64,000 nt of DNA, taken from assembly GCF_009746125.1 (NCBI RefSeq), contig NZ_CP041352.1, forward strand, positions 3,828,436 to 3,892,435, written 5' to 3'. This DNA is from Casimicrobium huifangae (GTDB lineage: Bacteria; Pseudomonadota; Gammaproteobacteria; Burkholderiales; Casimicrobiaceae). The position numbers and the translations under genes are program-made. Position 1 is the stretch's first letter; each line of letters starts with the position of its first letter. Under the pieces are notes generated by a model. The model did no database searches. It was given only the letters and a program-made list of their open reading frames with translations, and was not told where the DNA came from. Shown piece by piece: positions 61-52,866 of this stretch.

Positions 61-179
61 ATCAACTTTTGTCTGAAAGCCGCGCCCAATTTGGGCGCAG
101 GCCGCCTTTTCGGCTTGGGTCGACTTTAGCCGGAATCGGGTTTTGAGCCCTAGCGCAATGCGACTTTTCGCAAAAAGCC
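61..179 (+). repeat. Intergenic palindromic repeat, copy 1
   Basis: First of five copies of a dispersed element (others near 4.8, 21.8, 43.5 and 52.8 kb). Three boxes are visible: ATCAACTTTT at 61-70, GTCGACTT at 119-126 and AAAAAGCC at 172-179. The same boxes recur at almost the same spacing in the other copies. The element ends directly at the ccmG stop codon (181-183). Inside it is a hairpin-forming GCGCCCAATTTGGGCGC. I see no gene in bases 1-180. Confidence 0.7.
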
Positions 180-180
180 G

Positions 181-693
181 TTACTTCAGAAACGAGGCGA
201 ATTTGGTCGCGAAGATTTCCGGCGAGATCGGGCCAACATGTTTGGCGCGGATGATGCCGTCGCGGTCGATCAGGAAGGTTTCCGGGGCGCCGTAGACGCC
301 CCAGTCGAGTGCGGCCTTGCCGCCCGGGTCGAAGGCGTTCACCGTGTACGGGTCGCCGGTTTTGCGCAGCACGTCGAGACCGAGCTCCCGCTTGTCTTTG
401 TAGTTAAGACCGATGATGGGCACCACGCTGCGCCGCTTCAGGTCCATCAGGTCCGGGTGCTCGTCCTTGCAGTTCGGGCACCAGCTCGCCCACACGTTGA
501 GCAGCCAGACCTTGCCCTTCATGTCGGCCGGCGAGAACTTCGCCGCGGGATTGTCCAGCGTTTCCAGCGTGAACGCGGGCGCCGGCTTGCCGATCAGCGG
601 CGACGGCACCTCGCGCGGATCGCGGAACAGCCCAAAGTAAAGCACTGCGGCGAGCGCAAAAAAGGCGATGGGAAGGAGAAGTTTCTTGTTCAT
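181..693 (-). CDS. ccmG: CcmG/DsbE thiol:disulfide interchange protein
   Basis: Membrane-anchored periplasmic thioredoxin-like protein of 170 aa. In cytochrome c maturation it keeps apocytochrome CxxCH cysteines reduced before heme attachment. An N-terminal signal anchor (about residues 4-23) is followed by a thioredoxin fold with the active site WCPNC at 71-75 and the CcmG-typical GVYGAPE segment near residues 130-137. I chose the ATG at 693 over a TTG six bases upstream because GGGAGGGAG lies 7 nt before it. That Shine-Dalgarno sequence is the edge of a foldback repeat. It is the last ccm gene of the minus-strand run visible here. The usual ccmF between ccmE and ccmG is missing. Confidence 0.93.
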   Translation of the reverse strand: MNKKLLLPIAFFALAAVLYFGLFRDPREVPSPLIGKPAPAFTLETLDNPAAKFSPADMKGKVWLLNVWASWCPNCKDEHPDLMDLKRRSVVPIIGLNYKDKRELGLDVLRKTGDPYTVNAFDPGGKAALDWGVYGAPETFLIDRDGIIRAKHVGPISPEIFATKFASFLK

Positions 694-700
694 ACGCAAA

Positions 701-816
701 CTCCCTCCCCCCTCGTGGGGGAGGGCCGGGGAGAGGGGGCGGCCGTCGCACAGCGATCAGGACTGGGGCAGGCTTCACCCTCTCCGCTGGCCCCTCTCCC
801 CTCAAGGGAGAGGGAG
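701..816. repeat. GC-rich foldback repeat between ccmG and ccmE
   Basis: About 116 bp whose two ends are imperfect inverted copies. The left arm starts CTCCCTCCCCCC (701) and continues with GGGGAGGGCCGGGGAGAGGG. The right arm reads CCCTCTCC..GGCCCCTCTCCC and ends in GGGAGAGGGAG (815). It resembles abundant intergenic repeats of many beta- and gammaproteobacteria (family resemblance from memory). On the minus strand its edge provides the ccmG ribosome binding site. Confidence 0.7.
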
Positions 817-829
817 AAACTCATCGCGA

Positions 830-1282
830 TCATTGCTTGAGTGTCTTCGCCGCCATGTCGCGCGCCTTGTGGGCCTTTTCGATGGCGGTAGCGGCCTCGG
901 GCGGCATGTAGTTTTCGTCGTGCTTGGCCAGCACTTCCTTGGCGCGGAATACCCCGTCGTCACCCAGCGAGCCCTGCGCAACCACACCTTTGCCCTCGCG
1001 GAACAGGTCCGGCAGGATGCCGCTATAGGCCACTGGCACCACCTGCGCGGTGTCGGTCACCTTGAACTGGACGTTGACGCCATCGCGCTTGACGCTGCCG
1101 GCCTCCACCATGCCACCAAGGCGGAAGGTGCGGCCGACCGGTGCCTCTTTGGCAACGATCTGCGAAGGCGTGAAAAAGAACACGAGATTCTGGTTGAACG
1201 CGGTCAACACCAGCGCCACGGCCACGGCGATGACGCCGAGGCCGCCGAGAATCAGTGCGAGTCGTTTCTGCTTAACTGTCAT
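830..1282 (-). CDS. ccmE: CcmE periplasmic heme chaperone
   Basis: 150-aa heme chaperone of System I cytochrome c maturation. It receives heme from CcmABCD and passes it to the CcmFH ligase. The sequence shows one N-terminal membrane anchor (about 8-28), an OB-fold beta barrel, and the HDENY motif with the covalent heme ligand His121 and Tyr125, followed by MPPE. Length and motif match the family. The start overlaps the end of ccmD by 11 nt, so the two are translationally linked. Between this gene and ccmG lies a repeat instead of ccmF. Confidence 0.95.
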
Positions 1283-1436
1283 GGTCTTCCTGCAATGCCT
1301 GTAGCGCCGACTTTCGAGCTTGCCGCAGGCTCACAAGTTCCGCAATGACCGCTATCAACAAGGCGCCATAACTGCCCCAGACAAAGAAGCCACGGCCGCC
1401 CATGTCCCAGAACGCGCTCCACGATTCCCAGTTCAT
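1272..1436 (-). CDS. ccmD: CcmD heme exporter small membrane protein
   Basis: 54-aa protein too short for most gene finders. It starts [20 protein letters not shown] and has one membrane helix (about 17-36), then a charged C-terminal tail ([19 protein letters not shown]). This matches the CcmD pattern: an aromatic-rich N-terminus with W/G/F, a single TM, and a basic/acidic cytoplasmic tail. CcmD helps release holo-CcmE from the CcmABC complex. Its ATG overlaps the ccmC TGA (ATGA at 1433-1436) and its own stop overlaps the ccmE start. Position and size make the call firm although sequence conservation in this family is low. Confidence 0.88.
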
Positions 1437-2209
1437 CGCAGCCATCCTTTCACCGCGTCGCGCAGCCAGGCAGCATTGCCCTCGCGCTCAATGATGCCGG
1501 TGCGCAGCCGGTGCATCGCTGCGGCAATGCTGTAGGCCCAGAAGGCGAAGGTCATGATCAGCATCGCGGCCAGCATGGTGGTGGCCATCGACGAACTGCC
1601 CGGCCGCACACTGGAGCCTTGGTGCAGCGTGTTCCACCACTTTACGCTGAAGTAGATGATCGGCACATTGATGGCACCGACCAGCGCGATCAGCGCCGAG
1701 GCGCGGTCGCCTTTCTTTTTGTCGTCGAACGACGCCGCCAGCGCCATGTAGCCGACGTAGAGGAAGAACAGGATCAGCGTTGAGGTGAGCCGCGCGTCCC
1801 ACACCCAGTAGGTGCCCCAGGTGGGTCGGCCCCAGAGGGCACCGGTCCAAAGCGAAATCACGGCCATGATGGCGCCGGTGGGCGCCAGCGCGTGACTCAT
1901 CATGAACGACAGCCGGGTGCCAAGCACCAGCCCGAGCAGCGACCAGAATGCCATCGCCAGATAAATCACCATGGCCATCCAGGCCGCCGGCACATGGATG
2001 AAGATGACGCGGTAGACCTCGCCCTGCTGGGCATCGGTCGGTGCCACAAAGAAGCCGAGGTAGAGGCCGATGGCGGAAAGCACAATTGCCAGCACCCAGC
2101 ACAGCGCTTCGATGCGGCCGGCGAGCGGAAAGAACGCAGCGGGCGAGGCGTAGCGCCAAAACCAGCGCCCGCCGTATTTTTCGTTGGATTGTTGCTCGGT
2201 ACGTGCCAC
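1433..2209 (-). CDS. ccmC: CcmC heme exporter/heme handling permease
   Basis: Integral membrane protein (258 aa, about six TM helices) that binds heme on the periplasmic side and loads it on CcmE. The tryptophan-rich heme-handling motif WGTYWVWDARLTS is clear, with flanking conserved His residues in FIHVPAAW and MSHALAP. The open frame extends upstream to 2257. The GTG at 2209, two bases after the ccmB stop, gives the usual length and avoids a long overlap with ccmB, so I used it. There is no strong ribosome binding site, consistent with translational coupling. Confidence 0.93.
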   Translation of the reverse strand: MARTEQQSNEKYGGRWFWRYASPAAFFPLAGRIEALCWVLAIVLSAIGLYLGFFVAPTDAQQGEVYRVIFIHVPAAWMAMVIYLAMAFWSLLGLVLGTRLSFMMSHALAPTGAIMAVISLWTGALWGRPTWGTYWVWDARLTSTLILFFLYVGYMALAASFDDKKKGDRASALIALVGAINVPIIYFSVKWWNTLHQGSSVRPGSSSMATTMLAAMLIMTFAFWAYSIAAAMHRLRTGIIEREGNAAWLRDAVKGWLR

Positions 2210-2211
2210 GG

Positions 2212-2886
2212 CTAATCGGTACTTATCTTCAATGCAGCCGCGGCTGCCAGCGGGCACAATGCTAGAGCAAGCAGCATGAAGGCGGCCTGAAGCGCCAGCT
2301 CCGCCGACGGTGACTCCCCGTAGAGCACGCGCAGCGCCGCGCCGGCGCCGAAGATCAGCGTCGGGATGGTCAGCGGCAGCACCAGCACGGCGGTCAGGAT
2401 GGCGCCGCCACGGGCCGAGACCAGCAGCGCCGCTGCAATCGCCCCCACCAGCAATAAGGTTGGAACGGCCATCGCTACGGTCAGCGCCAGCATGGCGGCG
2501 ACGTCACCGGGCAGGGCGTAGAACAGCGCGAACACCGGCGACACAGCGGCAAGCGCAACGCCGAGCGCCAGCGACAGCGCGGTGACACGAGCAAGGATCA
2601 GCACCGCGAGCGGTTCCGGCGAGGTCAGCAGCAGTTCCAGCGAGCCGTCGCGGGCGTCCTCATCAAACAGCCTTGGCAGCGAGAGCATCGCCGCCAGCAG
2701 CGCGCCGACAAAGATGACGCCGATGCCGATCAGCTTCAGCCGCTCCGATTCGCTGCCGACCGCGAACGGAAACAGCGAGCAGACGATCAGGAAGAACATC
2801 AGCGGATTCGCCCAGTCACTCTTGCGCCGCGCGAAGAGCTGCATCTCGCGGCGGAACACGGCGCCGACAGCAACGCGCAGGCTCAT
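2212..2886 (-). CDS. ccmB: CcmB heme exporter permease
   Basis: 224-aa polytopic membrane protein, the permease subunit of the CcmAB ABC module that powers release of heme-loaded CcmE. It begins with a basic cytoplasmic stretch (FRREMQLFARRKSDWANPLM, typical of CcmB). Six hydrophobic helices follow, with a conserved FDEDARDGSLELLL segment after helix 2. Start codon and ccmA stop overlap (2883-2886). It sits inside the ccmABCDE run. Confidence 0.94.
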   Translation of the reverse strand: MSLRVAVGAVFRREMQLFARRKSDWANPLMFFLIVCSLFPFAVGSESERLKLIGIGVIFVGALLAAMLSLPRLFDEDARDGSLELLLTSPEPLAVLILARVTALSLALGVALAAVSPVFALFYALPGDVAAMLALTVAMAVPTLLLVGAIAAALLVSARGGAILTAVLVLPLTIPTLIFGAGAALRVLYGESPSAELALQAAFMLLALALCPLAAAAALKISTD

Positions 2887-3506
2887 AGCGCCAGCTCCTG
2901 GGTGCGCGCAGCGGCGATGTCGACCGCCTGATGCGAGGTATAGATGACCAGCCCGCCTGCGGCAAGCCGCGCAGCGATGACGGCAGCGAGCTGCGCCTGG
3001 GTGTCAACATCAAGCGCAACGAAGGGCTCGTCAAGCAGCCACGCGCGGGGCGATGCGCTGCCGCCCGCGCTGCCCGCGAGCAGGCGGGCCAGCGAGGCAC
3101 GCTTGCGCTGCCCCTGCGACAGGGTCCCGAAGCGGCGATTGAGCAGGCTGCGCACGCCCAGAGCGGTGAGTGCCGATTCGATGCCCTGCCGGCTATCGTC
3201 AAGCCCGGCCAGCGCGGCGGCGTAGGCGAGGTTTTCACGCACGGTCAGTGCGTCGTTGAAGGCATTGGCGTGGCCAACGTAGCTCGCCGCCTGCGCAGGC
3301 GCCAGCGTGGCGTCCCCCGCCAGCCACTGCACCTCGCCAGCGGCTGGCGCGGCGAGCCCGGCGAGGATACGCAGCAGCGTGGTCTTGCCAGCACCGTTAG
3401 CACCGGTCACGCGCAGCAGCGAGCCTGCTTCCGCCGCAAACGACACGCCGTCGAATACAGCGCGGCCACCGCGCTCGGCGGCAAGCGACGTGACGGTCAG
3501 CTTCAT
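2883..3506 (-). CDS. ccmA: CcmA heme exporter ATP-binding protein
   Basis: ABC ATPase of 208 aa. Walker A GANGAGKTT at 35-43, signature LSQGQRKR, Walker B WLLDEP and the TSHQ switch region are all present. It partners with CcmB. The frame opens at 3536, but the ATG at 3506 overlaps the stop of the upstream MFS gene as ATGA and starts with the normal MKLTV strand, so it is the likely start. This overlap suggests the ccm genes are co-transcribed with the MFS gene. Confidence 0.94.
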   Translation of the reverse strand: MKLTVTSLAAERGGRAVFDGVSFAAEAGSLLRVTGANGAGKTTLLRILAGLAAPAAGEVQWLAGDATLAPAQAASYVGHANAFNDALTVRENLAYAAALAGLDDSRQGIESALTALGVRSLLNRRFGTLSQGQRKRASLARLLAGSAGGSASPRAWLLDEPFVALDVDTQAQLAAVIAARLAAGGLVIYTSHQAVDIAAARTQELAL

Positions 3507-4732
3507 GACACGGTGCGGATCTTGAATGCTGTCCACAGCGACGCCAGCGCGAACAGGCAGGACAGCAGTCCAACCGCTTCGAATCCGGCGAGACTGCCAC
3601 CGGCGGTATGGCTCAACATCGCGCCGCCAATCACCGCAGCGAGCCCGGTGAACAGGTTTTGCACGGCAGAATTGAACGACATCACGCGGCCGCGCAACTG
3701 CGGCGTGGACGCAGCCGTCACCAGCGCCATCGACGGGATGAAACGGCCGCTGACGAAGATGAAGAACAAAGCGGCAACGACCAGTTGCCAGAACAGGTTG
3801 ACGCCGAGCGTGTGGGTAATCAGCAGCATCGGCGCGATCGACAGCAGCACCAGCCAGTAGTAGACGATGGCGCGCGGATAGCGGTCAGACATGCGGCCGA
3901 ACAGCGGCCGGCTGAACAACGTCACGGCGCCGCCGACCAGATAGAAATACGCAAGCTGCACCTCGCTCATGCCCTCGTTGGTGATGCGCGACGGCGCGAT
4001 GTAAGGGATCACGATCATGCCCGACAGCGTTAACAGGGCCGACGTGGCAAACGCCCACCAGTGGTTCCGTACTCGAAGCAGTTCGGCATAGCCGCGCCAC
4101 AAGCCGGTCCAGAGACCGGCATGGCTGGCCGCACGCATGTGGCCGCGCATGTTCGGGATCAGACGGAGCGCGACGACGAACAGCAGCGCGCAGGTCGCCG
4201 CCAGCGCGAAGAACGGCACATGCCAGCCGCCATGCGCGGCCACGTAGATCGACAGCGGCACGCCGAGCACGGCGGAGAGCGACATCGACAGCATCACCAG
4301 CCCCATCGCCCGGCCACGACGCTCGTCGGGCACCAGATCGCCGACGATGGAAAACGCGATCGAACCCTGCACGCCGCCAAACAGCCCGGCCACAGTGCGC
4401 GCCGCCAGCAGAGCCGCGTAGTTGGGCGCCAGCGCGCAGCCCAGCGTGCCGACAATCAGGCCGGCGTAGACCACCAGCAGCGCGTGCTTGCGGTCAAAGC
4501 GGTCAGCGATTGACGCCATCAGCAGTGACGCTGCCGACGCCGCGAACGCGTAGGCCGATACCAGCAGGCCAAACTGCGTGGTGTCGATGCCGAATTCGCG
4601 CATCAGATGCGGCGACAGCGGCATCATGACCATGAAGTCCACCACATTGGTGAAGCTCATCAGCGTGATCACCAGCAGGATTTGCCGCTCGCGCGCGGGC
4701 GACGGCGTCAGGCTGTGCGCGCTGCTGGTCAT
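3503..4732 (-). CDS. MFS transporter heading the ccm operon
   Basis: 409-aa major facilitator superfamily protein with about 12 TM helices. The loop 2-3 signature appears as ADRFDRKHALL and the loop 8-9 counterpart as GRMSDRYPR. The N-terminal half resembles drug/sugar efflux permeases (MFS_1), but no substrate can be assigned. Its stop overlaps the ccmA start by 4 nt, so it looks like the first gene of the ccm transcript. A link to heme or cysteine/thiol export is only an inference from position. The ATG at 4732 lacks an obvious Shine-Dalgarno sequence, so a later start is possible. Confidence 0.85.
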   Translation of the reverse strand: MTSSAHSLTPSPARERQILLVITLMSFTNVVDFMVMMPLSPHLMREFGIDTTQFGLLVSAYAFAASAASLLMASIADRFDRKHALLVVYAGLIVGTLGCALAPNYAALLAARTVAGLFGGVQGSIAFSIVGDLVPDERRGRAMGLVMLSMSLSAVLGVPLSIYVAAHGGWHVPFFALAATCALLFVVALRLIPNMRGHMRAASHAGLWTGLWRGYAELLRVRNHWWAFATSALLTLSGMIVIPYIAPSRITNEGMSEVQLAYFYLVGGAVTLFSRPLFGRMSDRYPRAIVYYWLVLLSIAPMLLITHTLGVNLFWQLVVAALFFIFVSGRFIPSMALVTAASTPQLRGRVMSFNSAVQNLFTGLAAVIGGAMLSHTAGGSLAGFEAVGLLSCLFALASLWTAFKIRTVS

Positions 4733-5086
4733 GCGGCAGGACGACTGCGTTGGCCGCAGCGAAGTGCCCGCGACAAAAGGGAACTGCCGTCGCGGGCAGG
4801 GAAAAATACAGGCACCGGGAAGAATGGCTTTTTGACTAAGGCGTTATTCTAATTGGGCGTCGGATGGTAATCCTTGCCAAGTCGACTTTTGCAATTTCAC
4901 GCCATGAGCCCTTATTGAATATCGCTTTCCGATAAAAGTTGATCTGCCAACTCGCAACTGAGTCTGAGTAGTCTTCGGCTGAATCGATGCCGGATTGACC
5001 GGCGTCAGCCTGCCCTTGCGCCAGCGCACCGACCTTCCCTGCAACAATGCCGAACCAATGTGAATTCGCACTGAAGGGCGCGCCCC
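4733..5086. other. Divergent intergenic region with repeat copy 2
   Basis: 354 bp between the divergent MFS/ccm run and the MacA-like adaptor. It holds one copy of the dispersed palindromic repeat (4826-4943) and presumably promoters for both directions. Short frames on either strand lack coding character. The adaptor ribosome binding site GAAGGG sits at 5073-5078. Confidence 0.6.
4826..4943 (-). repeat. Intergenic palindromic repeat, copy 2
   Basis: Read on the minus strand: ATCAACTTTT (4943-4934), GTCGACTT (4886-4879) and AAAAAGCC (4833-4826). Box spacings are 57 and 53 nt, matching the other copies. CAATAAGGGCTCA between boxes 1 and 2 and a GCCCAATT segment between boxes 2 and 3 are partly complementary, so the whole element can fold about the central AAGTCGACTT. 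This is the only copy lying between divergent genes. Confidence 0.72.
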
Positions 5087-6313
5087 GTGGCACAAGCTGA
5101 TCTGGCAAAACTGAGTCTCAACAAGGGCGCAACACCTGCGGCGACGCTGGCGGCGCGGCGGCGGCGCAAGTGGATCAAATGGGGATTTGGTGCCGGGGTG
5201 GTTGCGCTGGTCGTCGCCCTGCTGGCGTTGCGCAGCGCCAACGCACCGGCGGAGGTGGAGCTGGGAACCGTCACGACGGCCTTCCCGACCCAAGCCTACA
5301 CGCTGCTCAACGCCACTGGCCGCGTGGTGGCCGCGCGCAAGGCGGCCGTTTCGACCAAGGCGACCGGCCGGCTGGAATTTCTGGGCGTGCAGGAAGGCAG
5401 CGTAGTGAAGGCCGGGCAGGTGCTGGCGCGGCTGGAAGCGCTCGACGTCTCCGCCAACCGTGACCAGGCGCGCGCCGGCGTCGCCGCAGCCAAGGCCAAT
5501 CTCGAGCAGGGCAAGGCCGAGTTGGTGGACGCGGAAGCCAACTACCGCCGAACCGACGATCTGTTCAGGAAAAACTTCGTCTCTGCCGCCCAGCTCGACA
5601 CCGCGAGGGCGCGGCTGGATCGCGCCAAGGCGAGCATGGTCAGTCTCGACGCCGCCATCGGCGTCGCTGATGCGCAGACGCGGGCCGCCACGGTGTCAGT
5701 CGAACAGACGCTGATCCGCGCGCCGTTCGACGGTGTGGTGCTGACCAAGAACGCCAACGTCGGCGACATCATCACGCCGTTCTCGTCCGCTGCCGATTCC
5801 AAGGGCGCGGTGGTGACGATGGCCGACATGAGCACGCTCGAAGTGGAGGTGGACGTCACCGAAGCCAGCATCGGCAAGGTGGTGGTGGGCGGCCCCTGCG
5901 AGATCACGCTGGATGCGCTGCCCGAGGTGCGGCTGCTGGGAGAGGTCTCGCGCATCGTGCCGACGGTGGACCGGGCCAAGGCGACCGTGCTGGTGAAGGT
6001 GGCGTTTGTCGAACGCGATCCGCGCACCCTGCCAGACATGAGCGCCAAAGCCGCGTTCCTCAAGCAGAAGCCACTGGAAGCCGACCGCAAAGCAGTGGCT
6101 GCGGTGCGCAAGGAAGCGCTGGTCGAGCGCGACGGCAAGGCGGCGGTATTCGTGTTCGACGGCAAGACCGTGAAGCTGACCGCCGTCAGCAAGGGCCGCG
6201 ACCTGGGCGACAGCATTGAAGTGAACGGCGTCAAGAGCGGTGACCGCGTGGTGCTGAAACCCGCCGACAAGCTGCGCGATGGCGCCGCCGCAGTGCAGGC
6301 GGCAAAGAAGTGA
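5087..6313 (+). CDS. Periplasmic adaptor (MacA/HlyD-type membrane fusion protein)
   Basis: 408-aa adaptor subunit of a tripartite or MacAB-type ABC efflux system. There is a short basic cytoplasmic N-terminus, one TM helix (about 29-47), a biotinyl-lipoyl-like half (ATGRLEFLGVQEGSVVKAGQ), an alpha-helical hairpin rich in Ala/Asp/Arg (about 125-195), the second lipoyl half (TLIRAPFDGVVLTKNANVGD) and beta-barrel/MPD domains. Start is GTG at 5087 with GAAGGG 8 nt upstream. Its stop overlaps the ATPase gene (GTGA). The substrate is unknown; the ATPase and permeases that follow point to export or lipid/lipoprotein handling. Confidence 0.9.
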   Translation: MAQADLAKLSLNKGATPAATLAARRRRKWIKWGFGAGVVALVVALLALRSANAPAEVELGTVTTAFPTQAYTLLNATGRVVAARKAAVSTKATGRLEFLGVQEGSVVKAGQVLARLEALDVSANRDQARAGVAAAKANLEQGKAELVDAEANYRRTDDLFRKNFVSAAQLDTARARLDRAKASMVSLDAAIGVADAQTRAATVSVEQTLIRAPFDGVVLTKNANVGDIITPFSSAADSKGAVVTMADMSTLEVEVDVTEASIGKVVVGGPCEITLDALPEVRLLGEVSRIVPTVDRAKATVLVKVAFVERDPRTLPDMSAKAAFLKQKPLEADRKAVAAVRKEALVERDGKAAVFVFDGKTVKLTAVSKGRDLGDSIEVNGVKSGDRVVLKPADKLRDGAAAVQAAKK

Positions 6314-7047: not shown

Positions 7048-7062
7048 CGCATTGATCCGATC

Positions 7063-21009: not shown

Positions 21010-21693
21010 TTGAGCAGTGACAACGTAACCCCCATCGCTTCCGGCGATTTCGTCGCCGCATCGCAAAACCGCGTTCTGCGCAACACCTATCTGCTGCTGG
21101 CGATCTCGCTGTTGCCCACCATCGCCGGCGCGGCGCTGGGCGTGACGCTTGGCTTCAAGGGCTTTGGCGCCTGGTGGCTCAACTTCGTGATCCTGATGGG
21201 TGCCGTGATGGCATTTGGCTTCGGCATTGAGCGCACCAAGAATTCCGGCGCCGGTGTGGCGGTGCTGCTGGCGTTCACGTTCTTCATGGGCTTCTGGCTG
21301 TCGGTACTGCTCGGCCGCATCCTGGTGCTCAAGGATGGCGCCACACTGATCGCCTACGCGTTCGGTGGCACCGCACTGATCTTTGCCGGCATGGCGGCCA
21401 TCGCATCGAGCATCAAAACCTCGCTGTCCGGCATGGGCAAGTTCCTGTGGATCGGCTTCTGCGTGATCCTGCTTGCGGCCATCGGAGGCATCGTGTTCCA
21501 GATGCCGGCGCTGATGATCACCTGCTCGGTGTTGTTCATCGGCCTGTTTTCGGCGTGGACGGTGTACGACCTGAACCAGATCATCACTGGCGGCGAGACC
21601 AACTACATCACGGCGACGCTGTCGATCTACGTCAATTTGTTCAATATTTTCAGCAACTTGCTGAGTCTGCTGGGTCTCAGCAGCAGCGACTGA
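21010..21693 (+). CDS. Bax inhibitor-1/YbhL family membrane protein
   Basis: 227-aa integral membrane protein with seven predicted TM helices and the closing pattern DLNQIITGGETNYITATLSIYVNLFN seen in BI-1/YccA/YbhL proteins. Members are proposed pH-sensitive calcium leak channels or FtsH modulators (family knowledge). Start is TTG at 21010 with GGAGG 5 nt upstream; the frame is open further back but without a ribosome site. A strong terminator follows. Confidence 0.9.
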   Translation: MSSDNVTPIASGDFVAASQNRVLRNTYLLLAISLLPTIAGAALGVTLGFKGFGAWWLNFVILMGAVMAFGFGIERTKNSGAGVAVLLAFTFFMGFWLSVLLGRILVLKDGATLIAYAFGGTALIFAGMAAIASSIKTSLSGMGKFLWIGFCVILLAAIGGIVFQMPALMITCSVLFIGLFSAWTVYDLNQIITGGETNYITATLSIYVNLFNIFSNLLSLLGLSSSD

Positions 21694-21713: not shown

Positions 21714-21739
21714 AAAAGGCTCCTGCGGGAGCCTTTTTT
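21714..21739 (+). terminator. Rho-independent terminator of the YbhL-like gene
   Basis: A 10-bp stem AAAAGGCTCC / GGAGCCTTTT with loop TGCG and a T6 run, 20 bp after the stop codon. Confidence 0.93.
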
Positions 21740-21756
21740 CCTTGTGCCAGTCTTTC

Positions 21757-21875
21757 ATCTTTTTGGCTAAATGACCAAGAGACAAGGGCCGAAGGCCGTA
21801 TTCGACGAAAGTCGATATCCTGCTTTTTTGGCCACTGAGCCCAGTTCACACGGGCATTCTGGAGAAAAGCTGATT
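21757..21875 (-). repeat. Intergenic palindromic repeat, copy 3
   Basis: Minus-strand boxes: ATCAGCTTTT (21875-21866), ATCGACTT (21816-21809), then AAAAAGAT about 52 nt further on. Spacing is 59 and 52 nt. The third box and the central box are more diverged than in copies 1, 2 and 5. It lies between the convergent YbhL-like and tauC-like genes. Confidence 0.62.
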
Positions 21876-21887: not shown

Positions 21888-22724
21888 CTACACGCGCCCC
21901 TTCCACGGCACTAGCCACTGCTCGATGCGGCGCATCAGGAGGTCAAACAGGTAAGCGACCACACCAATCACGATGATGCCCATGATCACGATGTCGGTGC
22001 GCAGGAAGTTTGACGCGTTGAGCACCATCTGCCCCAACCCCTCGGTCGCTGCGACCATTTCCGCTGCAACCAGCGTGGTCCAGCCGAAACCAATGGCGAT
22101 GCGCATACCGGTGAGAATTTCCGGCAGCGCCGCAGGCACGATGACATGCCAGATTACCTGCCACTTCGACGCGCCCATCGAGTAAGCCGCATTGATCTGC
22201 TCGATAGTGACCGACTTCACGCCGGCCCGCGCTGCCATTGCCAGTGGCGCGAAGCAGGCCAGGTAAATCAGGATGATCTTGGCCGTCTCGTCGATGCCGA
22301 ACCAGATCACGATCAGCGGCAGGTACGCGAGCGGCGGCAGCGGCCGGTAAAACTCGATCGGCGGATCGAAAATGCCGCGCATCACGCGCGACACGCCCAT
22401 TGCCACACCGACCGGCACCGCCGTCAGCACGGCAAGGAAGAACGCCGAGAACACGCGGATCATGCTCCACATGAAGTGCTCCGGCAGCGCCTTGCCGCCC
22501 TGAATGTCGCCTTTCATGGCGCTCACGAAGGCGCTGAAAATCTTCTCCGGCGTCGGCAAAAACAGATCCCTGATCCAGCCGAGATGGGTAGCGAGCCACC
22601 AAAACGCCAGCAGGAGCACCACCGTGACCACGCTGATGACCACACTGCTGCCCTCGCCGGGCAGGCTGTAGCCCTTCACCGCGCGGACGGTTGGCGGCGC
22701 GGTGCCGCGCGGGTCACTGGCCAT
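21888..22724 (-). CDS. tauC: TauC/SsuC-type sulfonate ABC permease
   Basis: 278-aa permease (BPD_transp_1) with six TM helices. The EAA coupling loop reads INAAYSMGASKWQVIWHVIVPAALPEILTG, typical of taurine/nitrate/sulfonate importers. Its start overlaps the ATPase gene by 11 nt. With TauA-, TauB-like and aminotransferase genes it forms one minus-strand run, so taurine or a related omega-amino/sulfonate compound is the likely substrate. Confidence 0.9.
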   Translation of the reverse strand: MASDPRGTAPPTVRAVKGYSLPGEGSSVVISVVTVVLLLAFWWLATHLGWIRDLFLPTPEKIFSAFVSAMKGDIQGGKALPEHFMWSMIRVFSAFFLAVLTAVPVGVAMGVSRVMRGIFDPPIEFYRPLPPLAYLPLIVIWFGIDETAKIILIYLACFAPLAMAARAGVKSVTIEQINAAYSMGASKWQVIWHVIVPAALPEILTGMRIAIGFGWTTLVAAEMVAATEGLGQMVLNASNFLRTDIVIMGIIVIGVVAYLFDLLMRRIEQWLVPWKGRV

Positions 22725-42196: not shown

Positions 42197-43363
42197 ATGC
42201 TGAACGTCGCCTTGAAATTGCCCCGCACGGTCTGGTTTCTCGGGGCGGTGAGCTTTCTCAACGATGCGGCCAGCGATGCCATTTATCCATTGCTGCCGCT
42301 TTTCTTCGCCGCCACCTTCGCCGTCGGTGCGCAGGCGCTGGGGATCATCGAAGGCGCGGCCAACGCCACGGCAGCCCTGATGAAACTGGTGTCGGGCTAT
42401 TTCTATGATCGTTCGCAACGGGCCAAGGGCTGGTTGATCATTGGCTATACGTTGCCTGCGCTGTCGCGGCCGTTGATCGCGCTGGCCAGTTCAACGCCGG
42501 TGGTGCTGCTGTTGCGGATGGGCGACCGGATCGGCAAGGGGCTACGCACCAGTCCGCGCGACGCACTGCTGGCCGCCGCCGTACCGGCTGACCGCCGTGG
42601 CCTCGCCTACGGTCTGCACCGCAGCATGGATCACGCCGGTGCCGTGGCAGGGCCGCTTGCTGCTGCCGCCCTGCTCGCTGCCGGCTGGAGTGTGCGTGAA
42701 GTGATCCTGTGGACCATCGTGCCCGGCGTGCTGAGTGTGCTGCTGGTGGCGATGCTGCGAGAGCCCGAGGGGCTGGCAGTCGGCAACGGCAAAATCGACT
42801 GGCAGTGGCAGAGTCTGCCGGCACCATTGAAACGCTACCTCGTTGCGCTCGGGGTGTTCACGCTGTCGCAGGCGAGCAATATGTTTTTGTTGCTCCGGGC
42901 CAAAGAGACCGGTTTTACCGATACCCAGATTCCCCTGTTGTGGGCTGGGTTCTCGGCACTGGCGATGCTGCTGTCGACGCCGCTGTCGGCGCTGTCTGAT
43001 CGTGTGGACCGCCGCTCCCTGCTGTGCGGCGCGTGGGTGGTTTACGCCCTGCTGTTTGCCGCGTTCGGCCTGCTGCCGTCCCGCGTCGGGACCACCATCG
43101 CACTGTTCGTGGGTTACGCCATCTTCATCGCCGCCACCGAGGGCGCGGAAAAGGCGCTGATCGCGGAGCTGGCACCACAGGCACAGCTGGGCACGGCGTT
43201 CGGGTGGTTCCATCTGGTCAGCGGCGTGATGCTGCTGCCAGCCTCGGCGCTTTTTGGATGGCTCTGGAGCCACGCTGGATCGACAACCGCCTTCATGGTC
43301 AGCGCCTCAACGTCGTTCATTGCGGCGGGACTGCTGTTGCGAGCCAGGCGAGCCGAGCGCTGA
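42197..43363 (+). CDS. MFS transporter
   Basis: 388-aa permease with 12 predicted TM helices. The DRIGKGLRTSPRDALLA loop is characteristic of a broad group of unassigned MFS exporters. The ATG at 42197 lies 20 bp from the divergent GT-C-like gene's start. It ends before a copy of the palindromic repeat and a terminator. No substrate assigned. Confidence 0.88.
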   Translation: MLNVALKLPRTVWFLGAVSFLNDAASDAIYPLLPLFFAATFAVGAQALGIIEGAANATAALMKLVSGYFYDRSQRAKGWLIIGYTLPALSRPLIALASSTPVVLLLRMGDRIGKGLRTSPRDALLAAAVPADRRGLAYGLHRSMDHAGAVAGPLAAAALLAAGWSVREVILWTIVPGVLSVLLVAMLREPEGLAVGNGKIDWQWQSLPAPLKRYLVALGVFTLSQASNMFLLLRAKETGFTDTQIPLLWAGFSALAMLLSTPLSALSDRVDRRSLLCGAWVVYALLFAAFGLLPSRVGTTIALFVGYAIFIAATEGAEKALIAELAPQAQLGTAFGWFHLVSGVMLLPASALFGWLWSHAGSTTAFMVSASTSFIAAGLLLRARRAER

Positions 43364-43419
43364 TGCCGGATGCACCGTCCGCGATGGACCACGAAACGGT
43401 CACCGTGCAGGCAAGCAAC

Positions 43420-43537
43420 AGCTTTCTTGCGAGATGCCTATTCAAATTGGGCTACGACGCCGTATCGGCAATAAGTCGACTATCGTCAAAACAATGAAAA
43501 AGCCCCATCGAAATGGGGCTTCTAGCGAAAAGCTGAT
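43420..43537 (-). repeat. Intergenic palindromic repeat, copy 4
   Basis: Minus-strand boxes: ATCAGCTTTT (43537-43528), GTCGACTT (43480-43473) and AGAAAGCT (43427-43420, two changes from AAAAAGCC). Spacings are 57 and 53 nt. The left half contains a terminator hairpin. It lies between convergent genes (MFS and solute-binding protein). Confidence 0.68.
43497..43521 (-). terminator. Terminator of the solute-binding protein gene
   Basis: On the minus strand a 9-bp stem AAGCCCCAT / ATGGGGCTT with loop TTCG is followed by T5. It lies within repeat copy 4, about 40 bp after the stop of the 43562 gene. On the plus strand the T run is weaker, so it may work less well for the MFS transcript. Confidence 0.85.
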
Positions 43538-43561
43538 CACCCGAAAGTGATCCAGAGGCGA

Positions 43562-44584
43562 CTAGCGCGGCAGCGAATTCACTTCTTTTTCCCACTTTTC
43601 AAGAATGCGCTTGCGCTCGGTCGAGGCGCCGTATTTCTTGAAGTCGTAGTTGATCAGTTTCACGCCATCCATCGTCGGGATCTTGGCGTCCTGCTTGAAC
43701 GTCTTGTTGGCCGGGTTCTGCAGCGAATTCGCCTTGGCGCCGATGCCCTGCCCCACCGGGCCCATCAGCCAGTCGTAAAACTTCTTCGCGTTGTCGCCAT
43801 TGCGCGAGCCCTTGATCAGCGCGATGCCGCCTACTTCGTAGGAGGTGCCTTCACACGGCGCGAACGACTTCACCGCCTTGAAACCAGCCTGACGCTCTTC
43901 CTCAAAACCAAACAGGAACGAGATACCAATCGTGGCCTCGCCGCGAGCGACGTTCTTCGCCTGCGCCTGCGAGCTCTTGGTGTACTGCGTAATGTTCTTG
44001 TGCAGCTTCTTCATGTAGTCGAAGGCCTTGTCTTCGCCCATCTGCTGCACAAGTCCGGCAACGATGGTGTAGGCACCGCCCGAGGAGCCCGGGTTCGCCA
44101 TTTCAACGTGGCCCTTGTACTTCGGATCGGCCAGATCAGCCCAGCACTTCGGCACCGGCAGCTTCGCCTTGGTCAGCACTTCTTCGTTGTAACCGATGCC
44201 AATGAAGCTGGTGTAGAAGCCGCCCACCATGTTGCCGCTCATGTCGTACTGGCGCACGCTCCAGTCGTAGAGGTCCTTGAGGTACGCCGGGCGATACGGT
44301 TCCAGCAGGCCCTGCTCGGCGGCGGCGAGAAACGGGTCACCGGTGCCGCCCCACCAGATGTCGGTCTTCGGATTGCTCGCCTCCGCCTTCAGGCGCGCCA
44401 GCGCTTCGCCGGTGCCAAGGTGGGTTTGTACGACCTTGACGCCAGTCGCCTTGGTGAACTCGGTCGCTGCCATTTCGCACCACGACTGATTGGTGGAGCA
44501 ATAGGCATTGACCTGTTGTGCGAACGAGGGTGCCGCCATCAGGCCAAGAACCAGAGGGGCCAACGCGGTGATTGTCTTTTTCAT
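43562..44584 (-). CDS. Iron(III)/spermidine-type ABC solute-binding protein A
   Basis: 340-aa periplasmic binding protein of the SBP_bac_6 type. A signal peptide of about 22 residues (MKKTITALAPLVLGLMAAPSFA) precedes QVNAYCSTNQSWCEMAATEF, where two cysteines may form a disulfide. Similar proteins bind ferric iron, phosphonates or sulfonates; ligand unknown. The ATG at 44584 is well inside the longer frame. It is paralogous to the upstream gene (44724-45743), both ending in an R-L-D/E-K-W/R-E-V-NSLPR/RSAPR tail. No permease or ATPase is adjacent. Confidence 0.85.
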   Translation of the reverse strand: MKKTITALAPLVLGLMAAPSFAQQVNAYCSTNQSWCEMAATEFTKATGVKVVQTHLGTGEALARLKAEASNPKTDIWWGGTGDPFLAAAEQGLLEPYRPAYLKDLYDWSVRQYDMSGNMVGGFYTSFIGIGYNEEVLTKAKLPVPKCWADLADPKYKGHVEMANPGSSGGAYTIVAGLVQQMGEDKAFDYMKKLHKNITQYTKSSQAQAKNVARGEATIGISFLFGFEEERQAGFKAVKSFAPCEGTSYEVGGIALIKGSRNGDNAKKFYDWLMGPVGQGIGAKANSLQNPANKTFKQDAKIPTMDGVKLINYDFKKYGASTERKRILEKWEKEVNSLPR

Positions 44585-46506: not shown

Positions 46507-46955
46507 CACAGCACCGCCGAATCCAGCCAGATGGTCACTGGGCCATCGTTGGTCAGGCTGACCTTCATGTCGGCGCCGAAGATTCCCGTCGGTACCGGCT
46601 TGCCAAGACGCGCGGCGAGCTTGCCGACAAAGCGGTCGAAGGCCGGTGACGCCTGCTCCGGGCGCGCGGCGTCGGTGTAGCTCGGCCGGTTGCCCTTGCG
46701 GGCGTCGGCGTACAGCGTGAACTGGCTGACCGCGAGAATTTCGCCGCCGACGTCCAGCACGCTGCGGTTCATCAGTCCCGCGTCGTCGCTGAAAATGCGC
46801 AACTTGACGATCTTGTCGGCCATGCGGTCCTCGATGGCCTCACTATCGTCATGCGTCACGCCAACCAACAGCAACAACCCATTGCCAATGGCGCCGGTAG
46901 TGGCGCCATTAACCACGACGTTCGCTGCGGACACCCGCTGCACCAGCACTCTCAT
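46506..46955 (-). CDS. dtd: D-aminoacyl-tRNA deacylase
   Basis: 149-aa DTD that hydrolyses D-aminoacyl-tRNAs and Gly-tRNAAla. The SQFTLYAD motif near 77-84 and the cross-subunit GPVT motif near 138-141 define the family. Its start overlaps the upstream oxygenase gene by 4 nt. Full length. Confidence 0.96.
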
Positions 46956-47584: not shown

Positions 47585-47636
47585 CCGTCGATTCTAGAAT
47601 CGGCAGATCGCTCCTTACGCTTTGAACGGTTCTGCA

Positions 47637-48626: not shown

Positions 48627-48655
48627 CAGCCGCACAAGAAGGATGGAGGACGGTG

Positions 48656-49420
48656 ATGAGCGAATGGAATGGCGACAAGGTGAAAGCCAGCGTCTCGGCC
48701 GAGGAATGGCAGACCCGCGTTGACCTCGCAGCCTGTTATCGCGCGGTGGCGATGATGGGCTGGGACGATCTGGTGTTCACCCACATCACCGCGAAAATTC
48801 CCGGCGAGGGGCATCACTTCCTGATCAATCCCTATGGCTTCATGTTCGAGGAAATCACTGCCTCGTCACTGGTCAAGATTGATCTCGCAGGCAACAAGCT
48901 CGACGACAATCCGCACCCCATCAATCCCGCTGGCTTCGTCATTCACAGTGCAATTCATACCGCCCGCGACGATGCCAAATGCGTGCTGCATACGCACAGC
49001 CTGAACGGGGTGGCCGTGAGTGCGCAAAAGGGCGGGGTGCTGCCGATCTCGCAACAGTCCATCTTTGTGCTGGCCAATCTCGCCTATCACAGCTACGAGG
49101 GCGTCGCGCTGATGGACGACGAGAAACCGCGGCTGGTCGCGGATCTCGGCGCCAAGAATTTCTTCATGCTGCGCAATCACGGCCTGCTGACGGTGGCGCC
49201 GACGATCCCCGACGCCTTCCAGTTGATGTACATCTTCGAGGCGGCCTGCACGATTCAGGTCCGCGCACAGGCGGGCGGTGAGCTGATTCCGATTCCGCAG
49301 GCGATCATCGACAACGCGGCGGCGCAGTCCCGCCAGGTCACCCGCGGGCAGGGCGGGCAGTTGTCGTGGCCTGGCGTATTGCGGCGGCTGCAGCGCCGCT
49401 TTCCGGGGTTCGACAGCTAG
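48656..49420 (+). CDS. Class II aldolase/adducin family protein
   Basis: 254-aa zinc-dependent class II aldolase. Metal-binding HTH is in CVLHTHSLNG and the third ligand in FMLRNHGLLT; the N-terminal LAACYRAVAMMGWDDLVFTHIT is typical of the L-fuculose/ribulose phosphate aldolase superfamily. Start ATG at 48656 with GGAGG 6 nt upstream. Next to a DenD-like gene, so a sugar-acid role is possible, though the following genes look catabolic for acyl compounds. Ligand unknown. Confidence 0.82.
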   Translation: MSEWNGDKVKASVSAEEWQTRVDLAACYRAVAMMGWDDLVFTHITAKIPGEGHHFLINPYGFMFEEITASSLVKIDLAGNKLDDNPHPINPAGFVIHSAIHTARDDAKCVLHTHSLNGVAVSAQKGGVLPISQQSIFVLANLAYHSYEGVALMDDEKPRLVADLGAKNFFMLRNHGLLTVAPTIPDAFQLMYIFEAACTIQVRAQAGGELIPIPQAIIDNAAAQSRQVTRGQGGQLSWPGVLRRLQRRFPGFDS

Positions 49421-49501
49421 CAACATCAGTGCGGCAAGTTGAGCGAACGCTCCATTCGCCTGCCTTAGCATCAAAAACAGACACGGATCAGGAGGATGCA
49501 G

Positions 49502-50581
49502 GTGTCGGACACAGTCAGTCGGTCGGAATTGTTCACGGGCACGCGACCGGTGGCCGAACAGCATCGCTTCGACGTTGCTGCGCTGGAGGCCTATCTGCGC
49601 GAGCACGTCGAGGGCTTCGCTGGTCCGCTGAGCGTCGAGCAGTTCAAGGGCGGTCAATCGAATCCGACCTTCAAGCTCATCACACCCGGCAAGACCTACG
49701 TGATGCGCTCCAAGCCCGGCCCGGCGGCGAAACTGCTGCCTTCGGCACACGCCATTGATCGTGAATTTCGCGTGATGCGCGGGCTGGCTGGCAGCGAGGT
49801 ACCAGTCGCCACCATGCACACATTGTGCGAGGACGAGTCAGTCATCGGTCGCGCGTTCTACGTGATGGATTTTGTCGATGGCCGTGTGCTCTGGGAGCCG
49901 CAGTTGCCGGGCATGACGCCTCCGCAGCGCACCGCCATCTTCGACGAAATGAACCGGGTGATGGCCGCGCTGCATCGCGTCGACTTCACTGCTGCGGGGC
50001 TTGCCGATTATGGTCGCCACGAGGGTTACCTGTCGCGCCAGATTGCCCGCTGGACCAAGCAGTACCGGGCCTCCGAGACCGAATCGATCGCCGCGATGGA
50101 CGCACTGATCGAGTGGTTGCCAGCGCACATTCCGGCAGGTGAAGAAACCAGCATCGTGCACGGCGACTATCGCCTCGACAATGTGATCTTTCACCCGACC
50201 GAGCCGCGCATTCTGGCGGTGCTTGACTGGGAGCTTTCGACGCTGGGGCACCCGCTGGCGGACTTTGCCTATCACTGCATGACCTGGGTGCTGCCGCCAG
50301 GCAGCGGCCGCGGCATGGCGGGGGTCGATCTTGCCGGCACCGGCATCCCGTCGCTGCAGCAATACACCGCACGCTACTGCGGACGCACCGGGCGCCCGGA
50401 TGGCATCCCCAATTTCGAGTTCTACCTCGCCTACAACATGTTCCGCCTCGCCGGCATCCTGCAGGGCATCATGAAGCGCGTCGTCGATGGCACGGCTGCG
50501 AGCGCGCAGGCGGTGGCAATGGGCAAATCAGCACGACCGATCGCCGAACAGGGCTGGCAGATCGCAAAGAGCATTCAGTAA
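49502..50581 (+). CDS. APH-family kinase-like phosphotransferase
   Basis: 359-aa aminoglycoside phosphotransferase/choline kinase-fold protein like those fused to ACAD10/11 in animals. Kinase motifs are QFKGGQSNPTFKL, the Brenner-type catalytic IVHGDYRLDNVIF and metal VLDWELSTLGHPLADF. The ATG at 49496 lies too close to AGGAGG; GTG at 49502 has the ideal 6-nt spacing. Animal relatives phosphorylate 4-hydroxyacyl-CoAs before isomerisation. The acyl-CoA dehydrogenase gene directly downstream makes the same pathway plausible. Confidence 0.85.
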   Translation: MSDTVSRSELFTGTRPVAEQHRFDVAALEAYLREHVEGFAGPLSVEQFKGGQSNPTFKLITPGKTYVMRSKPGPAAKLLPSAHAIDREFRVMRGLAGSEVPVATMHTLCEDESVIGRAFYVMDFVDGRVLWEPQLPGMTPPQRTAIFDEMNRVMAALHRVDFTAAGLADYGRHEGYLSRQIARWTKQYRASETESIAAMDALIEWLPAHIPAGEETSIVHGDYRLDNVIFHPTEPRILAVLDWELSTLGHPLADFAYHCMTWVLPPGSGRGMAGVDLAGTGIPSLQQYTARYCGRTGRPDGIPNFEFYLAYNMFRLAGILQGIMKRVVDGTAASAQAVAMGKSARPIAEQGWQIAKSIQ

Positions 50582-50684
50582 GGTGGTGACTCGCGTCGAA
50601 TGGCGTATGGCATAACGCGCTTTGCCGTCATTCACCTGTGGTCACTCGTCATTGGTCATTCGTCATTTCCCGAAGGGATAAAAC

Positions 50685-51905
50685 ATGGACTTTCAGCATT
50701 CCGACAAGGTCAAGGACTATCAGGCACGGCTGCTCCGCTTCTTCGACGAGCACATCTACCCGAATGAGCACCGTTACGAGAATGACGTGGCCGACAACAC
50801 CAAGGCGGGCAATCGCTGGGCGCCAACCAAAGTCGTTGAGGAGCTGAAGCCAATCGCCCGCGCGCAGGGGCTGTGGAACCTGTTCTGCCCACACACCGAG
50901 TACGGTGCCGGGCTCAACAACATGGAATACGCGCCGCTGGCCGAGATCATGGGCCGCGTGATGTGGGCCTCCGAGGTGTTCAACTGCTCGGCGCCCGACA
51001 CCGGCAACATGGAGACCATCATCCAGTACGGCACGGCGGAACAGAAGGCGCAGTGGTTGCCCGATCTGCTCGCTGGCAAGACGCGCTCGGCATTCGCGAT
51101 GACCGAGCCAGCGGTGGCTTCGTCTGACGCCACCAACATCGAGACCCGCATCGTGCGCGATGGGGATCACTACGTCATCAACGGCCGCAAATGGTGGATC
51201 TCCGGCGCCGGTGACCCGCGCTGCGCGGTGTACATCCTGATGGGCAAAAACGATCCGGACGCACCCAAGCATTTGCAGCAGTCGATGGTGCTGGTCCCCG
51301 CCAACACGCCCGGCGTGACGGTAGTCCGCCCACTCAATGTGTTCGGCTATGACCACGCGCCGCACGGGCACTGCGAAATCCTGTTCGAGAACGTCCGGGT
51401 GCCGGTGAGCAACATCCTGCTTGGCGAAGGACGTGGTTTTGAGATTGCCCAGGGTCGTCTCGGGCCGGGCCGCATCCATCACTGCATGCGTTCGATCGGC
51501 GTGGCCGAGCGCGCGCTGGAATTGATGTGCAAGCGGCTGGCCAGCCGCGTCGCCTTCGGCAAGCCGGTCGCCGCACAATCGGTGTGGCATGAGCGCATCG
51601 CCGAGGCACGCTGCATGATCGATCAGGCGCGCTTCCTCACCCTCAACGCGGCATGGATGATGGACGTCGCGGGCAACAAGGTGGCCAAGCAGCAGATCGC
51701 GATGATCAAGGTGGTGGCACCGACGATGGCGCTGCAGGTCGTCGACTGGGCCATTCAGGCGCACGGCGGTGGTGGTGTCAGCGACGACTTCCCGCTCGCG
51801 GGCGCGTGGGCGAACCTGCGCACACTGCGCTTTGCCGACGGTCCCGACGAAGTGCATCGCAATGCCATTGCCAAGACGGAGCTCGGCAAGTACGTGTCAC
51901 GCTGA
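50685..51905 (+). CDS. Acyl-CoA dehydrogenase (ACAD11-like)
   Basis: 406-aa flavoprotein of the long ACAD family. N-terminal helices, then [19 protein letters not shown] (FAD/substrate loop), [10 protein letters not shown], and the C-terminal [17 protein letters not shown] catalytic Glu cannot be fixed from sequence alone. The AAGGGA upstream of the ATG is a good ribosome site. With the APH-family gene 103 nt upstream it recreates as two genes the ACAD11 domain pair. Confidence 0.9.
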
Positions 51906-51923
51906 CCCGCTTGCGATGATCGT

Positions 51924-51951
51924 TTGCAAATACTGTAAATAAACACATAAT
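51924..51951 (+). promoter_or_regulatory. Putative sigma-70 promoter of radC
   Basis: TTGCAA (51924-51929), a 16-bp spacer and CATAAT (51946-51951) lie about 40 bp before the radC ATG in an A/T-rich patch. By eye; not tested. Confidence 0.4.
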
Positions 51952-51989
51952 ACGCCTGCAAATTGCCATTGGTGGCGGTGGAGGGCGTG

Positions 51990-52688
51990 ATGAGCATTCG
52001 GGACTGGCCGGCCGATGACCGGCCGCGTGAAAAACTGCTGGAGCATGGCGCGCAGGCCTTGACCGACGCCGAACTGTTGGCCATCTTCCTGCGTATCGGC
52101 GTCGCCGGCAAGAGTGCGGTGGAGTTGGCGCGCGAGCTGTTACAGCGCTTCGGCTCCGTCGCTGGTGTCGTGGCGGCGCCGCGCGACGAGTTCTGCAGCC
52201 TGCATGGCATGGGCGAAGCGAAGTTTGTCCAGCTTCAGGCGACCGTAGAAATCGCCCGCCGGGCCCTTGCCAGCGAAATGGCGGAACGCCCCCTGCTCAA
52301 TTCACCCGACATCGTGAAGGACTACTTGCGGCTGTCGCTTGGGCACGAACGCGTTGAAGTGTTCGTGGCACTCTGGCTTGACGCGCAGCACCGGCTGATT
52401 GAGATGCAGACGCTGTTCCGTGGCACGCTGGCGCAGACCAGCGTCTATCCACGCGAGGTGGTGCGCGCGGCGCTGGCGAAGAACGCCGCGGCGGTGATCC
52501 TCGCCCACAACCATCCGTCCGGTTCAACGCAGCCGAGTCAGGCCGACCGTTCGCTCACTCGGGTGCTAAAGGATGCCCTGGCGCTGATCGACGTTGCGGT
52601 GCTCGATCACTGCATCGTCGGCGCTACCGAGGCCGCCACGCAAGGCGCGATGCCGGTGCGTTCGATGGCGATGATGGGAGAGTTGTAA
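51990..52688 (+). CDS. radC: RadC (JAB/UPF0758) protein
   Basis: 232-aa protein. An N-terminal helix-hairpin-helix-like region ([21 protein letters not shown]...GVAGKSA) precedes a JAMM metalloprotease-like domain with [14 protein letters not shown]. RadC is widespread; its function, perhaps DNA repair or natural transformation, is not settled. ATG at 51990 has GGAGG 7 nt ahead. It is full length. Confidence 0.93.
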
Positions 52689-52748
52689 CGCGGCGCCCGC
52701 CGACAGCCGGCCGCACCCAGGTTGTTAGTTTTTGACGGTGACGGGAGC

Positions 52749-52866
52749 ATCAACTTTTTCGTCAAATGGCGTCTAATAAAGGCTTGTGATGATAAATAGT
52801 AGCAAGTCGACTTATGACTAAAAATGCCATCTAGCCCTTATTCAGTAAGGATTTCGTTAAAAAGCC
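52749..52866 (+). repeat. Intergenic palindromic repeat, copy 5
   Basis: Plus-strand boxes: ATCAACTTTT (52749-52758), GTCGACTT (52806-52813) and AAAAAGCC (52859-52866), spacings 57 and 53 nt. The inner segments AATAAAGGCT (52775-52784) and TAGCCCTTATT (52832-52842) are complementary on either side of AAGTCGACTT. Between the convergent radC and rnhA genes. Confidence 0.72.

Follow-up and report, generated by a model that had tools for sequence, protein, structure and literature searches.

Known chromosome-organising sites of bacteria, such as matS, SBS and parS, are short and regionally confined, and the topological domains of Escherichia coli have been described as stochastic; the borders of bacterial supercoiling domains, which measure ~10 kb, are to our knowledge not usually regarded as fixed by sequence. 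For E. coli, 400–500 domains have been reported (PMC3820752), the gyrase motif of this species is symmetric, spans 130 bp and has a GC period of 10.75 bp (PMC6379681), and repetitive extragenic palindromic sequences (REPs) of other bacteria lie near gene 3' ends and stop codons (PMC3733652). Here, we describe a dispersed repeat in Casimicrobium huifangae (Burkholderiales), five copies of which are located in a 64,000 nt stretch of its chromosome (contig NZ_CP041352.1, positions 3,828,436 to 3,892,435; hereafter, the window). The 16S sequence of this genome is 91.1% identical to a copy on a Cupriavidus megaplasmid, in line with a betaproteobacterium close to Burkholderiales. The element is a two-fold symmetric, intergenic sequence whose boxes are conserved while its two arms vary nearly independently, and which is inherited together with the 3' sides of genes. 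Like matS, SBS and parS, its copies are sequence-specific chromosomal sites under selection; unlike them, they measure ~120 bp and are distributed over the whole chromosome, at even intervals in this genome.

The preliminary description of this stretch had listed five copies with fixed box spacing, and all five were found at the positions given, aligning across ~118–121 bp and with the box distances reported (57–59 and 52–53 nt, start to start); only for the third copy was a correction of one base needed, its ATCA box starting at 21874. When the window was searched with a sequence-only model built from 34 copies, the five window copies among them, these five scored E 8e-21 to 1.8e-17, and since the next-best match reached only E 0.59, the window contains no decayed intermediates. 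Both points on which the repeat could have failed were checked: the copies align over more than 100 bp, and the spaced boxes are commoner than chance, the pattern ATCARCTTTT-N40-60-GTCGAYTT occurring 38 times in the genome and its reversed form not at all. At least 107 distinct loci were recognised genome-wide among the best 150 of 1001 first-look candidates scored (weakest E 1.3e-13). A profile located 75 places in an even sample of 864 kb, composed of the window and 40 stretches of 20 kb, and 42 matches in a contiguous 464 kb; extrapolation from the two samples gives ~390 and ~400 copies, respectively, per 4.47 Mb genome, with a profile trained on copies of the same genome it searched. The 75 places correspond to 150 of 151 matches, counted on both strands and merged, the weakest (E 0.02) being left out, and include both halves of one split element.

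The consensus is symmetric about GTCGAC and consists of TCAnCTTTT, GGGC, an A/T tract, AAGTCGACTT, a second A/T tract, GCCC and AAAAGnTGA, with a box-to-box distance of ~27 bp. In a logo of the 70 places of at least 100 bp, the near-invariant positions are TCA and CTTTT (1–9), AA (16–17), GGGC (32–35), TCGAC with the flanking T (59–65), AGCCC (85–89) and AAAAG (112–116); the alignment is local, and the 100% conservation at positions 1–3, which are filled in only 39–61 of the 70 rows, is overstated. Positions 47–48 and 73–75 are A or T in 96–100% of copies, both bases being common. Between copies, identity in the weak columns is 31.5%, practically the 31.6% that composition predicts, and outside the boxes the copies can thus be regarded as independent; the closest of 2,415 copy pairs shares 55% of these columns. 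A stretch of ~0.9 kb interrupts one element close to the middle (L185:16097–17076; chromosome ~3806098–3807072); a small lipoprotein-like reading frame was noticed in it by eye, and no gene was called there by the script. Half elements of ~67 bp, which reach from the centre to an end, stand alone at L174:8145–8214 and, in a relative of the same genus (G013), on contig C22 at 54019, 202007 and 202753. The copy at G013:C19:59678–59799 (L279) matches the exact two-box pattern whichever end it is read from, and is a near-perfect palindrome.

All 75 sampled places count as intergenic, any overlap with a called gene being at most 30 bp; the gene calls come from a codon-score script of simple design, which called 80% of the sample coding, so gene starts are rough. 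Thirty-five places lie between tandem genes, 22 between convergent genes (two of these being the halves of one element), 12 between divergent genes and six at a sample edge, which per gene pair corresponds to 35/457, 22/101 and 12/103 for the first three contexts. In the 464 kb set, the element starts a median of 31.5 nt behind a stop codon. Such a placement alone is not new, because REPs have also been reported there (PMC3733652). Orientation relative to replication was considered and dropped as not robust (lagging-type at 62/107 loci, P 0.12, and at 26/38 exact-box loci, P 0.03).

The association with gene ends has been retained between species. In the nearest species compared (G018; 80 orthologs with a mean protein identity of 88.9%), all five window positions are occupied, with no extra copy in the matching stretch, and the boxes of ortholog pairs are identical at 144/155 sites (93%) versus 93/240 (39%) for the spacers. 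Sharing of the element at the 3' sides of orthologs amounts to 10/12 versus 0/68 cases in G018, 3/6 versus 1/39 in G013 (67% protein identity) and 7/11 versus 3/42 in G009 (60% protein identity; P 2e-4, all 49 G009 matches used). The corresponding 5' figures are 4/5 versus 0/75, 0/2 versus 2/43 and 0/5 versus 7/48, and the lasting association is that with the gene end, with which the element is vertically inherited. Behind the RNase H gene rnhA, a profile match is present within ~75 bp of the stop codon in 7/17 genus genomes, namely the home genome (G000), G018, G013, G015 and G016, as well as, weakly (E ~5e-6), G011 and G009; G017 has a match ~0.9 kb from rnhA. No profile match was found behind rnhA in nine of the 17, and variant forms are apparent there by eye, not by profile, in G012, G010, G005 and G008. 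In other genera, inspection by eye of 23 out of 27 loci showed no element behind rnhA.

The distribution of the element is narrow. An order-wide model based on 48 copies from nine species, with 11 candidates scored per genome under strict filters that could miss weak relatives, gave matches of E <=1e-7 in 5/300 genomes of the order, all in the genus of the home genome, one of the 135 sampled. The two-box pattern was detected in 11/17 genomes of this genus and in 0/47 genomes of the family's other six genera; G009 lacks the pattern and contains a diverged family of 38–49 copies in 340 kb. The arms are common within a species and differ between species: they are of the GGGCT/AGCCC type in the home genome, CGCCC...GGGCG in G009, GCGACCG...CGGTCG in G011 and G012, and longer in G013. 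Behind rnhA, G013 has a copy at an inherited position with an arm of the G013 type. The sites have changed in step within species, which fits the expectation for co-evolution with a binding protein. Each arm in G009 (G009:C17, L335–L351) has local palindromes like TCGCCCAATT-n-AATTGGGCGA; these mirrored palindromes are clear in the G009 consensus, visible in G006 and G020 copies, and weak in the home genome.

In the home genome, the copies are also spaced more evenly than expected. In the contiguous 464 kb, 41 places, obtained by merging those less than 1.5 kb apart, have a mean spacing of ~11 kb, a coefficient of variation (CV) of 0.46 (0.49 without merging) and a largest gap of 23 kb, while 41 random intergenic gaps give a CV of 0.92–0.96 (sd 0.13–0.14) and a largest gap of 46–47 kb; none of 20,000 null draws was as even as observed in any version run. 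Limiting the null to 228 likely transcription-unit ends left the outcome unchanged (CV 0.946 ± 0.140), and counts in the 40 separate stretches, four of which overlap the 464 kb, are similarly under-dispersed (variance/mean 0.41 versus 0.92, P 0.0008). A hard exclusion of 3 kb fails to explain the home-genome CV (P 0.0006). In G018 the CV is 0.54 over 11 matches, which are not independent of the home genome. Overall, under-dispersion is pronounced in the home genome, less marked in G009, a distant relative, and absent in another, G013.

The preliminary description had proposed that each copy can fold into one long hairpin. The arms of the same copy pair at 49.5% of positions and arms dealt between copies at 48.0% (70 copies), and the fold energy of real arms (-35.6 kcal/mol) is close to that of chimeric ones (-34.7 kcal/mol; t -0.9, 66 of 70 copies). 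In G013 there is no excess of arm pairing over dealt arms, RNAalifold on 34 copies returned no consensus pairs, and strictly A/T positions pair across the arms no more than expected (70 copies). Neither G000 nor G009 shows local-stem covariation within copies above z 2.3, a value confined to a single register, and no Rfam match at the gathering score was obtained in the window. A conserved long hairpin is not the thing kept; as the arms co-vary hardly at all, the element is therefore better read as a double-stranded DNA site than as a hairpin.

Among the functions proposed at the outset, that of a nucleoid-protein site acting at the DNA level survives best, while the terminator, RNA and mobile-element readings fail or weaken. 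Our favoured explanation, which is held tentatively, is a DNA-wrapping site for the handling of supercoils or for nucleoid anchoring at gene ends; we infer the protein, the wrapping and the supercoil or domain function of this putative binding site. The key letters kept over long times suggest docking sites for a putative protein with a role in organising or untwisting the chromosome. The element would serve as a double-stranded DNA binding platform, being neither RNA nor mobile sequence, on which a complex of several protein subunits, its symmetry centred on GTCGAC, would bind or wrap ~120 bp, reading the boxes (the TCAnCTTTT ends, GGGC/GCCC and GTCGAC) and facing the A/T-only minor grooves between them. 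From sites ~30 nt past stop codons, most frequent per gene pair between convergent genes and ~11 kb apart in this genome, the complex would remove or fence transcription-generated supercoils at the ends of transcription units and thereby set domains of ~10 kb. The protein could be gyrase, recruited or positioned as at the strong gyrase site of phage Mu or at bacterial interspersed mosaic elements (BIMEs), or a dedicated nucleoid protein; gyrase itself would account for perhaps half of this already tentative expectation. The strictness of the boxes and their drift between species point to a dedicated protein, acting by itself or together with gyrase.

The size, symmetry, modest A/T phasing and place behind genes recall the gyrase motif, which is ~130 bp long and symmetric, with A/T–G/C phasing near the helical repeat (PMC6379681). 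Over the whole arm, the A/T profile of the element has a period of 9.9, 10.2 and 9.8 bp in G000, G009 and G013, respectively, in the same phase (P 0.006, 0.018 and 0.001). The annotated gyrase cut of phage Mu lies 20 bp behind gene G, and when the mean A/T profile was slid over 20 kb of Mu, this cut scored r 0.20, in the top 2.2% of 19,883 positions (0.4–5.8% for eight profile variants), a match that is suggestive at most. Functionally, the element may resemble the strong gyrase site of Mu or the gyrase-bound BIMEs of E. coli; the Mu site, too, lies just behind a gene. The element differs from them in having near-invariant boxes and no REP tag, and in the modest rank of the Mu match.

Several observations weigh against the DNA-wrapping explanation. 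In the home genome, the best A/T period is 7.7 bp beyond 10 bp from the centre and 7.4 bp beyond 17 bp, and the outer-arm P values at 10 bp (beyond 10 and 17 bp) are 0.034 and 0.083 in G000, 0.03 and 0.07 in G009, and 0.003 and 0.03 in G013; moreover, the three phasing species share ancestry. Elsewhere in Mu the profile matches better than at the cut (r 0.40 versus 0.20), the gyrase motif is degenerate whereas the boxes of the element are near-invariant, and the change of arms between species is not obviously expected under gyrase. Some hairpin memory remains as a small signal: the whole-dyad excess in G000 is slight but has P 0.007, a slight excess is also seen in G009 (45.4% versus 43.7% for dealt arms, P 0.03), z is above 2 for four dyad pairs in G000, of which 41–80 ranks top among all column pairs, and the strongest 9-pair excess in G009 falls on the long dyad (17–25 with 96–104). 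This residual pairing may reflect shared origin, palindrome correction or a weak hairpin constraint. Evenness is also qualified, as mutual exclusion of ~5 kb would give the home-genome CV (P 0.15), although it fits the largest gap less easily (P 0.04) and shorter intervals exist in the data. In G009, the CV is 0.54 over 49 matches (P 5e-5) with an unremarkable largest gap (P 0.10); because 14 of the 49 overlap called genes and some are surely false, the calculation was repeated with the 38 strong matches, yielding weaker evenness (CV 0.61, P 0.0047), and the 20 matches in G013 are not even (CV 0.85).

Among the alternatives, a bidirectional 3'-end module that acts on RNA or RNA polymerase, as a terminator, a roadblock or a stabiliser of mRNA 3' ends, is considered unlikely, even though it would account for the short median distance behind stop codons, the highest frequency per gene pair between convergent genes and a presence that tracks the gene 3' side across species, and the local palindromes in G009 could fold. 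Intrinsic terminators are neither enriched nor replaced, as a hairpin with a T-run follows 9/52 gene 3' ends with the element versus 22/178 without it in G000, and 6/51 versus 10/101 in G009. The terminator lies within the element itself at only 4/52 (G000) and 1/51 (G009) element-bearing 3' ends, and the T-tract of the element is on the wrong side for a terminator. The terminator module envisaged in the preliminary description is thus weakened, and its RNA-processing site fares no better with covariation that is absent or very small: the local-stem maximum of z 2.3 and the lack of covariation at strictly A/T positions both speak against the module, as do the 12 sampled places in divergent contexts. 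A protein roadblock at the DNA level may be compatible with these tests.

A long-lived selfish repeat of the REPIN/REP or miniature inverted-repeat transposable element (MITE) kind, that is, a pair of REP-like palindromes in inverted orientation which a REP-associated tyrosine transposase (RAYT) or another transposase would move in trans and which would persist as a population within the genome, appears quite improbable. Its size of ~120 bp, mirrored pair, copy number in the hundreds and intergenic position near stop codons resemble REPINs with their RAYTs (for REPs, PMC3733652); two mirrored local palindromes are seen in G009, half elements exist, and Y1_Tnp genes occur in 15/17 genus genomes, the two without them both being small (G014, in which no element was found, and G020, in which elements are seemingly few). 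However, unlike a REPIN, the element has a conserved centre, saturated spacers and inherited positions, no GTAG/CGTC tag stands at a fixed place (at most 4/70 copies share one column), and none of the five RAYT loci (four in G000, one in G009) is directly flanked by an element, the nearest being ~1.8 kb away in G009. Three of the five instead show short palindromes beside a GTAG tag. Furthermore, Y1_Tnp is also found in 19/27 element-less genomes of other genera, and G020 has elements at six or more distinct places but no Y1_Tnp. The earlier suggestion of a non-autonomous mobile element is likewise at odds with the occupation of 5/5 positions in G018, the saturation of the spacers and the absence of recent duplicates among the 70 copies.

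Known repeat classes were also considered by their features. By copy similarity, a MITE was rejected (best weak-column identity 0.55, mean equal to expectation, 70 copies), and by the features tested so was a RAYT/REPIN system, with no fixed tag and no direct RAYT flanking. The flanks of the copies were viewed by eye, and no empty site was encountered. Short GC-rich palindromes with GTAG were observed within ~250 bp of the RAYT-like (Y1_Tnp) genes at L353 and L302 (G000) and L355 (G009); they are ordinary GTAG-type REPs, separate from the element, and none was seen at L352 and L354. The long intergenic repeats of Caulobacter known as CIR, reportedly associated with CcrM GANTC sites, resemble the element in exceeding 100 bp and in inverted-repeat organisation; in contrast, GANTC is present in only 18/70 element copies, and a GANTC link is not supported. 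Among the matches listed in literature text searches, in which the box string was included, no published repeat was recognised as this element.

About as improbable as a selfish repeat is a reading in which the copies are operators for a global regulator or places where IHF or another general nucleoid protein bends the DNA. The palindromic box pairs ~27 bp apart and the arms that shift per species, as operators do, would suit it, and the ends of the element (ATCARnnnnTT) resemble the IHF consensus. Nevertheless, the sites are tied to the 3' and not the 5' sides of genes, as is evident in G009 (0/5 versus 7/48 at 5' sides), with the caveat that the 5' side is also shared in G018 (4/5), where the neighbours are conserved. 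The CTTT positions, which IHF should ignore, are ~100% conserved, and an IHF site was not supported. Least probable are fossils of an ancient transposition burst, spaced by target immunity and later co-opted or simply old, since old unselected insertions would not hold boxes at 93% with spacers at 39%, even though the even spacing fits an exclusion of roughly 5 kb or more.

Within the window, three copies (21757, 43420 and 52749) are flanked by convergent genes, the number first described; that at 4826 is flanked by divergent genes and that at 61 by tandem genes. Copy 1 (61–183, + strand) comprises ATCAACTTTT (61–70), GGGC (93–96), GTCGAC (119–124), AGCCC (146–150) and AAAAAGCC (172–179); it neighbours a redoxin gene with a Redoxin domain (181–693, - strand), whose stop codon starts at 181, and has its ortholog at G018:C53 ~32090. 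Copy 2 (4823–4944, - strand; ortholog G018:C53 ~36776) separates an MFS gene (3503–4732, - strand) from an HlyD-type gene (5198–6313, + strand). Copy 3 (21753–21875, - strand; ortholog G018:C53 ~53040) is situated between a Bax1-I gene ending at 21693 and an ABC permease gene ending at 21888, and is adjoined by a conventional terminator hairpin (21715–21743, + strand), separate from the element, whose hairpin and T-run are identical in the G018 alignment. Copy 4 (43416–43538, - strand; ortholog G018:C53 ~82631) is found between an MFS gene ending at 43363 and a solute-binding-protein gene ending at 43562, and a terminator-like hairpin (43493–43521, - strand) lies inside it. Copy 5 (52748–52870, + strand) is placed between radC, ending at 52688, and rnhA, ending at 52881.

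A more far-reaching form of the DNA-wrapping explanation, which we regard as somewhat unlikely, is that the copies are genus-specific mileposts, in which a dedicated, fast co-evolving DNA-wrapping complex would use ~400 selected 120 bp gene-end sites, one every ~11 kb, to build topological domains of regular size encoded in the sequence, in contrast to the stochastic domains of E. coli. The change of arms by species provides a handle for finding the partner protein, and the clearer local palindromes of G009 are a good bait for it. Should the partner be gyrase, no chromosomal gyrase site known to us would be nearly as strict as the element. An estimated 400 selected, inherited and evenly spaced sites at gene ends would allow a sequence-encoded domain structure to be tested directly.

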